Of a DNA stretch of 26,236 bases, positions 20,739 through 25,664 are shown piece by piece. Each line of letters opens with the position of its first letter. Position 1 is the first letter of the stretch. The position numbers and the translations under genes were made by a program. Under the pieces are notes generated by a model that was not told where the DNA came from, searched no databases, and was given only the letters and a program-made list of their open reading frames with translations. Source of the stretch: a virus. The DNA is taken from the IMG/VR virus record IMGVR_UViG_3300023172_002449, positions 1-26,236 of that record. The stretch is one strand, 5' to 3'.

Positions 20739-21155
20739 ATGGGTACCGCATCAATGATCGGAGTTTATAATAAAGACGGATCAGTCACAGCATCTTACTG
20801 CCATTATGACGGCTATCTTTCTTATAACGGAAGACTTTTAGTTGAAACATATAACACAACAGAAGCCGCAAATGCAGTTGCAAATTGTGGTTATCTTTCA
20901 GGTTTAACTAATGATCTTGATAATGATCTTAAAGAAGCTGTACATAAAAATGAAGAACCCCGAATTTATAATTCAGTTGATACCTTCCTAAAAGTTGGTG
21001 ATCGTTATGCTGGAGCGGATTATCTTTATCTTTTTGATGGAAAAACATGGCTCTATACCGATACATATGGTAACCGTAAAGACCGTAAGTTTAAAGAAGT
21101 CGAAGCAGATTTGGTAGATCATGATGCTCCCAAATTCAATCAGGTAGCAGTATAA
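20739..21155 (+). CDS. conserved-type phage protein, 138 aa
   Basis: It starts MGTASMIGVYNKDGSVTASY, then CHYDGYLSYNGRLLVETYNT and a loop with NCGYLSGL. T4-like and other phages have a family with the same frame (MxTRSxIG, DGxVxxxYCHxDGYPxxxGxxLxxxYN), function unknown. The strong repeat-type promoter and GTTAGGAGAC before the ATG point to high early expression. It may be a takeover protein. It is coupled to the next gene by TAATG. Confidence 0.75.
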   Translation: MGTASMIGVYNKDGSVTASYCHYDGYLSYNGRLLVETYNTTEAANAVANCGYLSGLTNDLDNDLKEAVHKNEEPRIYNSVDTFLKVGDRYAGADYLYLFDGKTWLYTDTYGNRKDRKFKEVEADLVDHDAPKFNQVAV

Positions 21156-21712
21156 TGAAACTTAGTAATTTATTATCTGGTATTATAAACGGTATTACTG
21201 CAACAGCTATTATAGTTGTTGCAGGCACTCAACTCTATGCCAATGATCATAGCTGGGATAAAAAACAAATAAGTAAAATCACAAATAATGATTTACATTG
21301 TCTCCAGCAAAATATTTTCTTTGAAGCAAGAAATCAAACAGTAAAGGGACAAGTTGCCGTAGCATGGGTAACACTCAATCGTTTAGATGATACTCGTTAT
21401 CCAAATACAATTTGTGGAGTTGTAAAGCAAGCTAATCGTGATTCAAATGGTAATATCATTAAACATAAATGTCAGTTCAGTTGGTATTGCGACGGCAAAT
21501 CGGATAAAATACCCAGTAATAAAATATCACAAAATGCTTGGAAACAAGCTGGTATTGTAGCCGAGGTTGTTCTAATGGATAGAATGTCTGGATATATCTT
21601 TAAGGATCCTACTAAAGGTTCAACTATGTATCATGCCGATTGGGTATCACCATACTGGAAAGTAAAGTATGATCAGGTAGCTTATATTGAAGACCATGTT
21701 TTCTACAAGTGA
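21155..21712 (+). CDS. SleB-type cell-wall hydrolase with N-terminal membrane anchor
   Basis: A 185-residue Hydrolase_2/SleB-like enzyme. Residues 8-28 form a hydrophobic segment (SGIINGITATAIIVVAGTQL) that could be a signal peptide or signal anchor. The domain begins LHCLQQNIFFEARNQTVKGQ with the catalytic Glu at E57, and continues with VAVAWVTLNRLDDTRYPNTI, CQFSWYCDGKSD and MYHADWVSPYW, all hallmark stretches. Such enzymes cleave peptidoglycan and in phages serve as endolysins. The anchor resembles SAR endolysins, which are exported without a holin. Placement in an apparently early unit is odd for a lysis gene. No holin was identified nearby. Confidence 0.88.
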   Translation: MKLSNLLSGIINGITATAIIVVAGTQLYANDHSWDKKQISKITNNDLHCLQQNIFFEARNQTVKGQVAVAWVTLNRLDDTRYPNTICGVVKQANRDSNGNIIKHKCQFSWYCDGKSDKIPSNKISQNAWKQAGIVAEVVLMDRMSGYIFKDPTKGSTMYHADWVSPYWKVKYDQVAYIEDHVFYK

Positions 21713-22317: not shown

Positions 22318-22509
22318 ATGAAACAAGAAATAATTAAATTTAAAAGTACAAATTATTATCGAAATAAAAAAAGAAATGAACTTGTACGAAAAAGATTAAA
22401 AATAAAATACCAGAAAAGGGCAGGCACTTATCTTCTGGATCCTATGAATAAGAAAGAAGATAAAAACACACTTGAATTTAATATTGATTCTGATTATATT
22501 ATGATGTAA
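22318..22509 (+). CDS. basic 63-aa protein of unknown function
   Basis: It starts immediately after the previous stop. The N-terminal 35 residues are very basic (FKSTNYYRNKKRNELVRKRL, then KIKYQKR), and the end is acidic (LEFNIDSDYIMM). It may bind nucleic acid. It is the last gene before the tmRNA and is followed by a 10-bp inverted repeat. No family is recognised. Confidence 0.6.
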   Translation: MKQEIIKFKSTNYYRNKKRNELVRKRLKIKYQKRAGTYLLDPMNKKEDKNTLEFNIDSDYIMM

Positions 22510-22530
22510 CATATTTACTACAATAAAAAA

Positions 22531-22559
22531 TGATTAATAAATCTTATAGTTATTAATCA
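22531..22559. repeat. 10-bp inverted repeat upstream of the tmRNA
   Basis: TGATTAATAA (22531-22540) and TTATTAATCA (22550-22559) are exact reverse complements with a 9-nt loop, just upstream of the tmRNA -10 boxes. It may be a weak AT-rich terminator for the preceding unit or an operator for tmRNA transcription. Confidence 0.5.
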
Positions 22560-22562
22560 TCA

Positions 22563-22578
22563 TATAATACTATATAAT
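22563..22578 (+). promoter_or_regulatory. candidate tmRNA promoter (two TATAAT boxes)
   Basis: TATAAT occurs at 22563-22568 and again at 22573-22578, 3-6 nt before the first bases of the tmRNA acceptor piece. The second has only a weak TTATTA at 17 nt upstream, and no TTTACA is present, so activity may depend on an activator or on read-through. Confidence 0.45.
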
Positions 22579-22634
22579 CTGTAGACGTTATAAAGACTAT
22601 ATGGACCTGGGGGCGGCACCCAGCAGCTCCACCA

Positions 22635-22720
22635 TAAACACTTGATAGAGGACGCTCGAAAATTCTGGGAAGCAGATAGGGAAGTAGCTACCTGATTCTG
22701 TGGAGAAATTCAAGTGTTTA
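22635..22720. repeat. inverted repeat bounding the tmRNA spacer
   Basis: TAAACACTTGA (22635-22645) directly follows the acceptor CCA, and TCAAGTGTTTA (22710-22720) ends four bases before the coding-piece GGGGCT. In the precursor this 11-bp helix stacks on the acceptor stem and presents both junctions for processing, probably by RNase P and 3'-end nucleases of the host. Confidence 0.85.
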
Positions 22721-22771
22721 TGATGGGGCTGAAATAGGATCGACATGTATTCTAGTTTACAAAATACAAAT

Positions 22772-22816
22772 GCAAACGATAACTTTGCACCATCTGGTTA
22801 CGCACTAGCTGCATAA
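22772..22816 (+). other. tmRNA tag reading frame, ANDNFAPSGYALAA
   Basis: From the resume codon GCA (22772) the frame reads ANDNFAPSGYALAA and stops at TAA (22814-22816). ANDN at the start and ALAA at the end are the general features of alphaproteobacterial tags; the ALAA end is the ClpXP/ClpAP degradation signal. Confidence 0.92.
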
Positions 22817-22894
22817 CACAGGGGGTTGGCCACTTACCTAGCAACAGAAATAGTGGCACATTAATTTTAAAAATTCATTAAGGGAATAAAACAA

Positions 22895-23275
22895 ATGAAA
22901 ATCGCAGCACTCACAGTAGCAGCAACAATTGCAGCAACATCAGTATCAGCAATGGACCTTGGTTCAACAGGTCTTTCACTTAACACAGAAGTAGACGCAT
23001 CATGGGATCTTGATGCTGATACGAATAACCTTCTCGTTACTCTTGAGCCAGAGTTGGGTTACAGCATTGTTGGTGTGAGCCTTACGGCTGGTATGGATCT
23101 TAATGTTTATCAGAATGAAGAATTTGTTCTTGGTGATCAGTTTGACGCTCTTTCAATTGACTTTGGTGCGTCTTATCAAATTATGGAAGGCCTTTCCGCT
23201 TATGGTGAAACAACCTGGGACGTAGAAGCTAGTGAACTCGAAGCATCAAAAGTTGGTGTTACTTTTTCATTCTAA
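22895..23275 (+). CDS. small exported beta-barrel-like outer-membrane protein
   Basis: A 126-residue protein with a clear signal peptide, MKIAALTVAATIAATSVSA (cleavage about residue 19). The mature part is alternating polar/hydrophobic strands (LSLNTEVDASWDLD, NLLVTLEPELGYSIVGVSLTA, DALSIDFGASYQI, SAYGETTWDVEA) and ends VGVTFSF with the terminal Phe typical of proteins inserted by BamA. The length would allow about six to eight strands. GC and Ala/Thr codon use are higher than in neighbours, suggesting a host source. TAAGGGAA precedes the ATG. It starts 35 nt after the tmRNA with no promoter between. Possible roles are blocking receptors for other phages or altering permeability; both are inference. 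Confidence 0.7.
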   Translation: MKIAALTVAATIAATSVSAMDLGSTGLSLNTEVDASWDLDADTNNLLVTLEPELGYSIVGVSLTAGMDLNVYQNEEFVLGDQFDALSIDFGASYQIMEGLSAYGETTWDVEASELEASKVGVTFSF

Positions 23276-24512: not shown

Positions 24513-25664
24513 ATGAGAAAGTTCTTGTTAAGCGCTTTCTTTGTTATGACCGCTGCTATGGTTCAAGCACAGGTTGCTAATGATGCAGACGGTAATTTTG
24601 ATAGTACTAGCTATGTAGAAACAAACAATGATAGTACTACAACCACAAACAGTACTGTGACTACTGATAATACGAATACTAATGATACGACGATCACTAG
24701 TACAAACACGAATACAAATACAAACACGAATACTAGCACTATAGATAGTACGACTACTTCTACAAATACGAACACTAATACTAGCACTATAGATAGTACA
24801 ACAACATCGACAAACACTAATACCAATACGAGTACAATTACTAATACTACAGATAGTACTATCAATAGTACCAGTAATAATACTTCAAATATTACTACAA
24901 CAACGGATAACACGAATACGAATACTAATACGAATACCTCAACTATAACAAGTGATAATACGAACAATAATACAAACACTAATACCAATACGAGTACGTC
25001 TACTAATACAAACACTAACACGAATACCAATACGAGCACGTCCACTAACACTAGTAATGTAACTACTGATAATACAAGTAGTAATACAAACACCAATACA
25101 AATACGAATAATTCTACAGTAAGTTCTACCAGTAATAATTCCAATACAAATACTAATACGAACACTAGCGATTCTACAGTTAATAGCACTTCAACAAGTG
25201 ATAACACCAATAATAACATTAACACGAATAATTCTACAGTTACACAAAAGATAGAATCACCACCACCGTCCGCTATTGCTCCTACTGTTATGGGAGGCGG
25301 AAATGATAACTGTACCGTAACTTGGTCGAGTGCTGTTCAAACACAGATAGTTGGTATGAGTGGTGGTGGTCATATTCGTGATATGAATTGTGAACGTCTT
25401 AAAAATTCCAAAACTCTTTATAATATGGGTATGAAAGTAGCTGCTGTTGCTTTGATGTGTCAAGATGAATCAGTTTATAGAGCTATGGAAATGGCTGGAA
25501 CTCCTTGTCCCTTTAAAGGAAGTATAGGAACCGAAGCAAAAGCGTTGTGGGATAATAGTCCTGATATGCAACCAAAACCACAACTACCAGGAGAAGCTGC
25601 AAATGCACCGGCTAATGCCCTTATTGGTGGCGGTATACTGCTTATCTTACTCGCTCTCCTCTAA
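24513..25664 (+). CDS. exported Asn/Thr/Ser-repeat protein with conserved C-terminal domain
   Basis: A 383-residue protein in four parts. The signal peptide is MRKFLLSAFFVMTAAMVQA (1-19). Residues about 27-243 are almost only Asn, Thr, Ser and Asp, including an exact 16-residue tandem repeat (STIDSTTTSTNTNTNT twice). After a Pro-rich joint (ESPPPSAIAPTVMGGG) a globular domain with four Cys follows: NCTVTWSS, IRDMNCERLK, ALMCQDESVY, GTPCPF. The end, ALIGGGILLILLALL, is a hydrophobic span. I recall the Cys-domain in other T4-like marine phages without function. The layout suggests a membrane-anchored surface or periplasmic stalk. It is under a late promoter and overlaps the next gene by 62 nt. 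Confidence 0.8.
   Translation: MRKFLLSAFFVMTAAMVQAQVANDADGNFDSTSYVETNNDSTTTTNSTVTTDNTNTNDTTITSTNTNTNTNTNTSTIDSTTTSTNTNTNTSTIDSTTTSTNTNTNTSTITNTTDSTINSTSNNTSNITTTTDNTNTNTNTNTSTITSDNTNNNTNTNTNTSTSTNTNTNTNTNTSTSTNTSNVTTDNTSSNTNTNTNTNNSTVSSTSNNSNTNTNTNTSDSTVNSTSTSDNTNNNINTNNSTVTQKIESPPPSAIAPTVMGGGNDNCTVTWSSAVQTQIVGMSGGGHIRDMNCERLKNSKTLYNMGMKVAAVALMCQDESVYRAMEMAGTPCPFKGSIGTEAKALWDNSPDMQPKPQLPGEAANAPANALIGGGILLILLALL
24732..24997. repeat. direct repeats within the Asn/Thr region
   Basis: ACTAGCACTATAGATAGTAC occurs at 24732-24751 and 24780-24799, a 48-nt (16-codon) period. A 26-nt segment is identical at 24810-24835 and 24972-24997. Many shorter ACTAATAC-type repeats fill the region, so it can change length by slippage or recombination in frame. 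Confidence 0.85.

Follow-up and report, generated by a model that had tools for sequence, protein, structure and literature searches.

A fragment of a phage genome, analysed here over its entire virus record of 26,236 bases (the window), holds a gene for a permuted tmRNA whose two pieces are separated by a spacer. This locus raises the question of whether the gene is a genuine phage gene and, if so, what resides in a stretch of the transcript that is expected to be discarded. We find it very probable that the permuted, alpha-type tmRNA gene genuinely belongs to the phage and that its spacer acts as a hypervariable, exchangeable slot. The comparisons below show that this slot can be occupied by an empty hairpin, by an insert without coding signal (the case of the window) or by a predicted small protein gene.

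The window contains a permuted tmRNA gene

Two Rfam covariance models identified positions 22577–22860 of the plus strand as a circularly permuted tmRNA, both above their gathering cut-offs (RF01849, alpha_tmRNA: 22540–22860, 84.6 bits, gathering 50, E 7.5e-22; RF04321, tmRNA_permuted: 22577–22816, 77.5 bits, gathering 47, E 1.6e-13). A sequence-only reading of this DNA had proposed such a gene and named a covariance search as its check, and both scores bear it out. The fold of 22577–22865 is better than that of all 200 of 200 dinucleotide shuffles (z −4.04). ARAGORN reported no gene anywhere in the window, permuted tmRNA included.

The gene has the permuted order of encoded CCA, spacer and GGGG 5′ strand (Table 1). 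Its acceptor piece ends in GGACCTGGGGGCGGCACCCAGCAGCTCCACCA, with the CCA at 22632–22634. The spacer is closed by a helix formed from an exact 11-bp repeat, TAAACACTTGA (22635–22645) and TCAAGTGTTTA (22710–22720), which is followed by TGAT and can be extended by 2 bp between the CA of the CCA tail and TG. GGGGCT at 22725 pairs with AGCTCC over 6 bp, including a G3.U70 wobble. G3.U70 is the alanine identity element of the acceptor stem; it is present in 166 of 166 parsed phage loci among the matches listed, a count that is favoured by the search patterns and the parser themselves. The tag ends in a hydrophobic residue and two alanines before the stop. The acceptor piece, the repeat, the acceptor pairing and the tag frame ending in ALAA had all been described in the earlier reading and are present to the base. 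That reading took the repeat for a boundary only; it marks what proved to be the most interesting part of the locus.

Table 1. Features of the tmRNA locus in the window and spacer types of its lineage.
Feature	Position or loci	Strand	Basis or remark
Upstream neighbour, endolysin family	21155–21712	+	PHROG 938, E 2.5e-20
Acceptor (tRNA-like 3′) piece: 5′ arm of P2, T arm, 3′ acceptor strand, CCA	22577–22634	+	RF04321 and RF01849 alignments, sequence
Intervening (internal transcribed) spacer, 90 nt, exchangeable slot	22635–22724	+	Sequence, lineage comparison
Longest open frame in spacer (17 aa, from TTG to TGA), unlikely to be a gene	22642–22695	+	No Shine-Dalgarno seen
Coding (mRNA-like, 5′) piece: acceptor strand GGGGCT, GATCGAC segment, tag frame, 3′ domain	22725–22860	+	RF01849
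Tag frame ANDNFAPSGYALAA, resume codon GCA, stop TAA	22772–22816 (codons to 22813, then TAA)	+	Sequence
Downstream neighbour, 126-aa protein, signal-like start	22895–23275	+	Relative downstream in 14/15 lineage loci
25-nt spacer, empty hairpin	L221, L231, L232
74–75-nt spacer	L142, L236, L237, L239
90-nt spacer	window, L092, L233, L235
164-nt spacer with frame MTTRIKMKGGDEFDALSKK...	L234, L238, L242
229-nt spacer with Shine-Dalgarno-like GGAG and 66-aa frame MSDYKDLVNTFLKNGGE...	L240, L241

The helix P2 between the two pieces is paired in both model alignments, but is short and A/U-rich, with non-standard pairs marked. The lead from G1 to the resume codon measures 47 nt in the window. Among the loci in which a simple pattern gave the resume codon, it measures 59–106 nt, except in L092 and L068, which also have 47. 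Because this lead is so short, pseudoknot 1 of the window tmRNA looks reduced or replaced. Of the fold expected from the earlier reading, the acceptor pairing stands, while a canonical pseudoknot 1 is not fully borne out. A hairpin GTATT/AATAC upstream of the resume codon, read from the sequences, is not intact in L142 or L231. In L096, the coding piece has an unusually long tag frame of 29 aa, script-read as ANDNVSNVFSFVDFGSLKNYVNEDYALAA.

The short lead could be taken as a sign that the gene is a decayed or imported host ssrA without function, and ssrA fragments are reported to occur in prophages (Buchholz et al, 2022; PMC9004378). We consider this barely credible: both Rfam models pass their cut-offs, and the tag frame and acceptor pairing are kept across the lineage of related loci described below, while flanks and spacers diverge. 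The tag is ANDNFAPSGYALAA or ANDNFAPSGFALAA in 15 of the 16 loci (the window and 15 others), the exception, L234, being cut. Import is opposed by the host search, in which an exact 26-base window-specific tmRNA segment had 0 matches in the genome collection. A nucleotide search of the phages collection with the window tmRNA likewise gave no match.

The carrier is a T4-like phage

The window is taken to derive from a T4-like phage because of its predicted gene content, which comprises a UvsX recombinase, a DnaB-like helicase, ThyX, an Hsp20 and a DNA polymerase (phrog_262, 992.6 bits) that has its best relatives in T4-like cyanophages and in phage C48C1 (53.1% identity). Rfam matches and phage genes thus agree with the earlier proposal of a permuted, two-piece-type tmRNA on such a phage. 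Across the lineage, a relative of the endolysin lies upstream of the tmRNA in 15 of 15 loci, with 32–42% identity in the 12 that are not near-identical to the window. As to the 126-aa neighbour, L234 ends before the gene and in L142 it lies farther off (+417); no phrog_480 match was seen next to the tmRNA of L142 or L231. Three loci, L092 (from an 82-kb contig), L233 and L235, share the tmRNA and the spacer of the window, and their neighbour proteins are 100% identical where present. A search of 16 records (phage Melnitz and the lineage contigs other than the window, 15 in number and often fragmentary) found no SmpB gene, so SmpB of the host must serve. Further downstream of the tmRNA, at 24513–25664, the window encodes a protein of 383 aa that has a signal-like start and extended Asn/Thr repeats (12–48-nt units in tandem).

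Phage-borne two-piece tmRNA as such was published in 2022, a point on which the sequence-only reading had been unsure. Buchholz et al (2022; PMC9004378) reported one in the cultured phage Melnitz. In the same paper, 53 of the 133 unique structures of phage tmRNAs are two-piece ones according to ARAGORN (50 of the 53 marine or aquatic), and 17 of 47 Melnitz-like contigs have a permuted tmRNA. The paper also names Methylophilales (OM43) as the host of Melnitz, whose ssrA the authors place with alphaproteobacterial ones. The permuted tmRNA type therefore does not fix the host group, contrary to the earlier claim. The 2025 tmRNA database (PMC11915505) lists 79 sequences from bacteriophages and 11,946 of the permuted form; its accessible text makes no mention of protein genes in the intervening sequences of permuted tmRNA. 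Among the titles and beginnings of abstracts listed from the openly searchable literature, none described a protein gene inside the spacer of a phage tmRNA. The two-piece tmRNA of phages is thus already known, and the spacer as a swappable slot, often with a small protein gene, looks new.

Spacers appear to be exchanged within the tmRNA lineage of the window

The lineage was defined by a complete scan for the window-specific start of the coding piece, which matched 15 IMG/VR stretches in addition to the window. The mature pieces are nearly constant across this set, and the spacer is of five types (Table 1). Near-identical backbones carry spacers of different types. L232 (25 nt) and L240 (229 nt) are 100% alike in the first 137 nt of the coding piece and 98% in the next 500 nt, with 86% upstream. 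L221 (25 nt) and L241 (229 nt) share 96% upstream, 99% in the coding piece and 79% downstream; the corresponding values for L232 (25 nt) and L236 (74 nt) are 96%, 99% and 90%. Conversely, L240 and L241 differ in 1 of 229 spacer bases, whereas their flanks are only 85% and 82% alike. From these two patterns, the simplest reading is that whole inserts have been exchanged between near-identical tmRNA backbones. The 74–75-nt inserts were also considered as structured RNA, which a comparison of their interior folds with shuffles did not support.

Phage spacers are often long and mostly closed by a helix

Phage loci were collected with two further scans, of which scan A used an acceptor-piece pattern and left the spacer unconstrained, and scan B required TGAT before GGGG; only the matches listed were used in both. 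Together with the lineage scan, these matches gave 188 candidate phage sites, and the permuted order could be parsed at 166 of them; some of the unparsed sites look like one-piece genes or cut contigs. Most of the loci are metagenome contigs. Of 12 proteins taken from loci whose spacers are coding, 5 had PHROG matches at the set cut-offs, so the phage origin of the rest leans on their assignment by IMG/VR. For comparison, 118 bacterial contigs were retrieved with one pattern (matches listed), of which 109 were parsed; the remaining 9 comprise 8 with an acceptor piece within about 110 nt upstream and 1 that is cut.

In the 166 parsed phage loci among the matches listed, spacers range from 4 to 499 nt. 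The longest, in L074, contains a 120-aa frame that follows GGAG, starts about a quarter of the way in and has no Pfam or PHROG match. Bacterial spacers range from 4 to 116 nt, with 89 of 109 at 22–50 nt (matches listed); those of three Candidatus Pelagibacter contigs measure 11–12 nt. Spacers of at least 57 nt occur in 31 of 51 unique phage loci of the acceptor-piece scan (matches listed), compared with 8 of 108 unique parsed bacterial loci. When the phage set is trimmed to the bacterial alpha-type signature, 10 of 17 loci still have such spacers (Fisher p 3e-6, matches listed).

Among the 33 unique spacers of at least 45 nt from the acceptor-piece scan (matches listed), 31 have a closing helix of 8 bp or more, as against 38 of 1650 dinucleotide shuffles. 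The full phage set, which is partly selected for TGAT, gives 112 of 122 unique spacers versus 68 of 2440 mononucleotide shuffles (matches listed). The helix mostly measures 9–13 bp in spacers of at least 45 nt (matches listed), that of the window 11 bp. Among bacterial spacers of at least 20 nt, 20 of 98 have a helix of at least 8 bp (matches listed).

On short stretches round each gene, ARAGORN found 105 of 153 parsed phage loci and 100 of 104 bacterial ones (matches listed), so a census based on it likely undercounts the permuted tmRNAs of phages. Among 15 tested members of the window lineage, it missed 14, the window included. On the minus strand of contig L170, tmRNA-like 5′ pieces occur at two positions (140 and 414) separated by about 270 nt. 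Rfam reports one of them, and they may be tandem tmRNA genes cut by the contig end.

Several inserts have features of their own. By eye, the spacers of L134, L144, L162, L016, L193, L180 and L084 form an H-type pseudoknot with covarying loop pairing (CTGCA/TGCAG, CTGTAA/TTACAG, CTGCAC/GTGCAG and CTGCAT/ATGCAG). T-arm-like stretches such as GCGGTTCGAAACCGT lie beside or near the closing helix in L362 and L363 (phages DSS3_MAL1 and MD18), L170, L140 and L099; a script pattern confirmed the one in L170 only, and the DSS3_MAL1 and MD18 spacers resemble it by eye. The stretches suggest tRNA-derived inserts. As for tRNAs, ARAGORN found none in the unique IMG/VR phage spacers of at least 55 nt and their flanks (matches listed).

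Many long spacers carry small protein genes

Long phage spacers frequently contain open reading frames that exceed chance. Compared with dinucleotide shuffles, the longest ATG frame was significant (p ≤ 0.05) in 25 of 35 unique spacers of at least 130 nt and in 6 of 24 at 100–129 nt, as against 3 of 50 at 70–99 nt and 0 of 13 at 45–69 nt (matches listed). When a Shine-Dalgarno-like stretch was required, the numbers in these four classes were 21, 7, 3 and 0 (matches listed). In 13 pairs of related frames, some of them related to one another and counted without tree correction, pooled pN/pS for the in-spacer part is 0.22 in frame versus 0.99 and 1.63 out of frame. The same pairs have 0 stop columns in frame versus 59 and 60 in the other frames, and their differences fall on codon positions 1, 2 and 3 in the proportion 85/40/155.

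Among 10 spacer frames tested against Pfam, that of L184 matches DUF6356 (46.2 bits, cut-off 24.4). Two others are below cut-off (L201, DUF2061, 22.3 versus 23.1; L145, DUF3778, 16.9 versus 22.1), 7 of the 10 have no match, and none of the 10 matches an endonuclease. Against PHROGs, 1 of 10 tested frames gave weak matches at E ≤ 0.01, and tblastn of two spacer proteins in the phages collection gave none. A free-standing small membrane protein at 605–820 of the window, which has no PHROG match, resembles by eye the DUF2061-like frame in the L201 spacer.

Two families of predicted spacer genes have free-standing relatives. The 66-aa gene of L240 occurs at ten IMG/VR loci: five, including L240 itself and L241, lie in spacers and are spread over two tmRNA lineages, and five have no permuted tmRNA in the available flank (1.5 kb or to the contig end). 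A family of membrane peptides of 38–44 aa has 274 relatives, of which the best 80 were examined. Within these 80, 60 lie strictly inside a permuted tmRNA spacer, 4 precede a coding piece whose acceptor piece is cut off or was not found, and 16 are placed otherwise; by eye, 7 of the 16 are followed by a tmRNA start, 6 are free-standing (L399, L400, L411, L429, L431 and L458) and 3 are unclear. A further candidate family (L151, L161, L217, L238 and Melnitz) turned out to be joined only by the tails that run into the tmRNA and is counted as real only for L151 and L238.

Taken together, many long phage spacers carry protein genes under purifying selection, the expression of which is predicted. The frame-specific pN/pS, the Pfam match and the relatives outside tmRNA genes exclude chance frames in these phages. 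RF04321 was run on 16 chosen records whose spacers are coding, and every one scored above the cut-off, so the tmRNAs concerned are not visibly broken.

The insert of the window has no coding signal

For the window itself, the picture is different: unlike the 13 pairs from other loci, its spacer gives no indication of a frame under purifying selection. Its longest ATG frame has 5 codons (p 1.0). The longest open frame of any kind starts from TTG and reads LIEDARKFWEADREVAT, and it is highly improbable that the spacer encodes this 17-aa peptide: the start lies inside the closing helix and lacks a recognisable Shine-Dalgarno sequence, and a search with a degenerate codon pattern retrieved no diverged relative. 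That pattern found only L092, L233 and L235, all with identical spacers, and the idea of a coding remnant was dropped.

The 90-nt insert could instead be a structured RNA that regulates how the tmRNA is processed, as a riboswitch, ribozyme or sponge. With the closing helix included, 22634–22722 folds better than 196 of 200 shuffles (z −3.10); once that helix is removed, the interior is no better than shuffles (z −0.46), and the insert was rejected as a structured RNA. By comparison, 8 of 74 spacers classed as non-coding have an interior z below −2 (matches listed), and some other inserts show, by eye, loop-downstream pairing or the T-arm-like stretches described above. Within the window insert, Rfam gave no non-tmRNA family at cut-off and only chance-level, sub-cut-off matches at E ≤ 10; in 18 loci searched, no non-tmRNA match overlaps a tmRNA gene. 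The spacer contains GGGAAGTAG, which resembles the glnA (glutamine riboswitch) motif, but Rfam at E ≤ 10 has no riboswitch match in 22500–22900. A glutamine riboswitch has been reported in the 3′ domain of the Melnitz ssrA (PMC9004378). On balance, a regulatory RNA is improbable here.

Another alternative is that the tmRNA of the window is a phage two-piece tmRNA of the ordinary kind and its spacer neutral filler, with the frames in other spacers due to chance or irrelevant to the window. The missing signals of coding or excess structure in the window insert agree with it, as does the rarity with which spacers of 45–99 nt exceed chance (ATG frame at p ≤ 0.05 in 3 of 63, matches listed). Chance frames are excluded in other phages by the evidence given above, however, and neutral filler alone leaves the exchange of whole inserts between near-identical backbones unexplained. 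We therefore regard this account as possible but doubtful for the locus as a whole. It does not compete with an exchangeable slot at every point, and may be true of just the 90-nt insert, which has no coding signal and is possibly neutral filler. That this insert is cargo is suggested by analogy with the other spacers, given that it has no ATG frame of note, an ordinary interior fold and no Rfam family at cut-off.

A model for the exchangeable slot

The exchangeable slot that we favour can be placed in a scheme of tmRNA maturation (its steps are taken from the family and from the anatomy of the gene). One transcript would be cut at the CCA end and at G1 by RNase P and 3′ enzymes. The acceptor and coding pieces would stay paired, be charged with alanine on the CCA and bind SmpB of the host, and the mature tmRNA would rescue stalled ribosomes and add the tag ANDNFAPSGYALAA. 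The spacer, held until then by the helix that prolongs the acceptor stem, would be discarded in processing. A long helix would keep both ends together whatever sits at its tip, which would leave the slot free for cargo there; forming the helix would be the chief constraint on the sequence of the slot. The cargo could then be swapped by recombination within the conserved pieces of the tmRNA.

The positions of stops and ribosome-binding signals allow a further coupling. We selected 44 spacer frames (ATG start, at least 26 codons, p ≤ 0.1, spacer of at least 98 nt; matches listed), of which 17 end with the TGA of TGAT and 11 with the TAG of GGGGNNGAAATAG; in 5 the stop lies further downstream, and in 11 it is inside the spacer. 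A cut at G1 would keep the stop in the TGAT and inside-spacer classes (17 and 11) and remove it in the others (11 and 5). The Shine-Dalgarno-like stretch overlaps the closing helix in 17 of the 44 and was not recognised in 10 (matches listed). These positions are compatible with a coupling between maturation and expression of the nested gene.

In its strongest form, which we put forward tentatively and consider rather unlikely, the phage permuted tmRNA would be a dual gene, its spacer a dedicated exchangeable site and the expression of the passenger tied to tmRNA maturation by a switch like that of ArfA, whose logic is the basis of the comparison. An uncut precursor would yield the full passenger protein. 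Where RNase P removes a stop beyond G1, the passenger message would become non-stop and its product would be tagged by its own tmRNA, so that a cut precursor leads to destruction of the product. A Shine-Dalgarno-like stretch in the closing helix would be a second lock on expression.

Whatever the regulation, phage tmRNA genes have so far been noted as one gene each, and many appear to hold a second, hidden element in the discarded part of the transcript that is swapped between phages. Their spacers are a new place to look for small phage proteins. Annotation probably skips such genes, as suggested by the Melnitz spacer, in which no CDS is annotated. Nested spacer genes would also make the coupling of RNA maturation and translation cleanly testable.

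Comparison with known systems

The closest cultured counterpart is the ssrA of Melnitz (MZ577097.1), with an annotated tmRNA at 45984–46436 and a spacer of 142 nt. It resembles the window in being a phage-borne permuted tmRNA with a closing helix of the same kind and TGAT before GGGG. Unlike the window, its spacer has a candidate frame, MFKWLSKTRLVVITRDYFRERNRKADAKIPKYLSG..., that follows GGAG and runs into the coding piece, and its resume-codon lead is about 82 nt rather than 47. At the sensitivity used, sequences similar to the Melnitz tmRNA were confined to the four Melnitz records. In the roseophages DSS3_MAL1, MD18, DSS3P8 and vB_RpoS-V10 and in Rhodobacter phage RcSimone-Hastad, spacers of 97–111 nt fold with a closing helix. 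The permuted tmRNA is recognisable but unannotated in Phaeobacter phage MD18, Roseobacter phage DSS3P8, Ruegeria phage vB_RpoS-V10 and RcSimone-Hastad. In Rhodobacter phage RcRudolph (L366) and MT836065 (L368), which had matched by nucleotide search, parsing gave no permuted tmRNA.

The permuted tmRNAs of Alphaproteobacteria (RF01849, RF04321) share with the window the order of acceptor piece, spacer and coding piece, the CCA, G3.U70, the GCA resume codon and a tag ending in AA; they differ in their short spacers, and the lead of the window is reduced. Unusual intervening sequences have been recorded in the 2025 database, which gives one tRNA-Ala, called unique, in a nominally archaeal genome and one repetitive element (PMC11915505). 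These are inserts like those described here, but are single database cases, not from phages and, as told there, not protein genes. The same source describes group I introns in intron-form tmRNA that have a homing-endonuclease frame inside the removed segment (PMC11915505). This arrangement parallels a protein gene in a discarded spacer; the intron, however, is self-splicing, whereas the gene described here is permuted and no ligation is expected.
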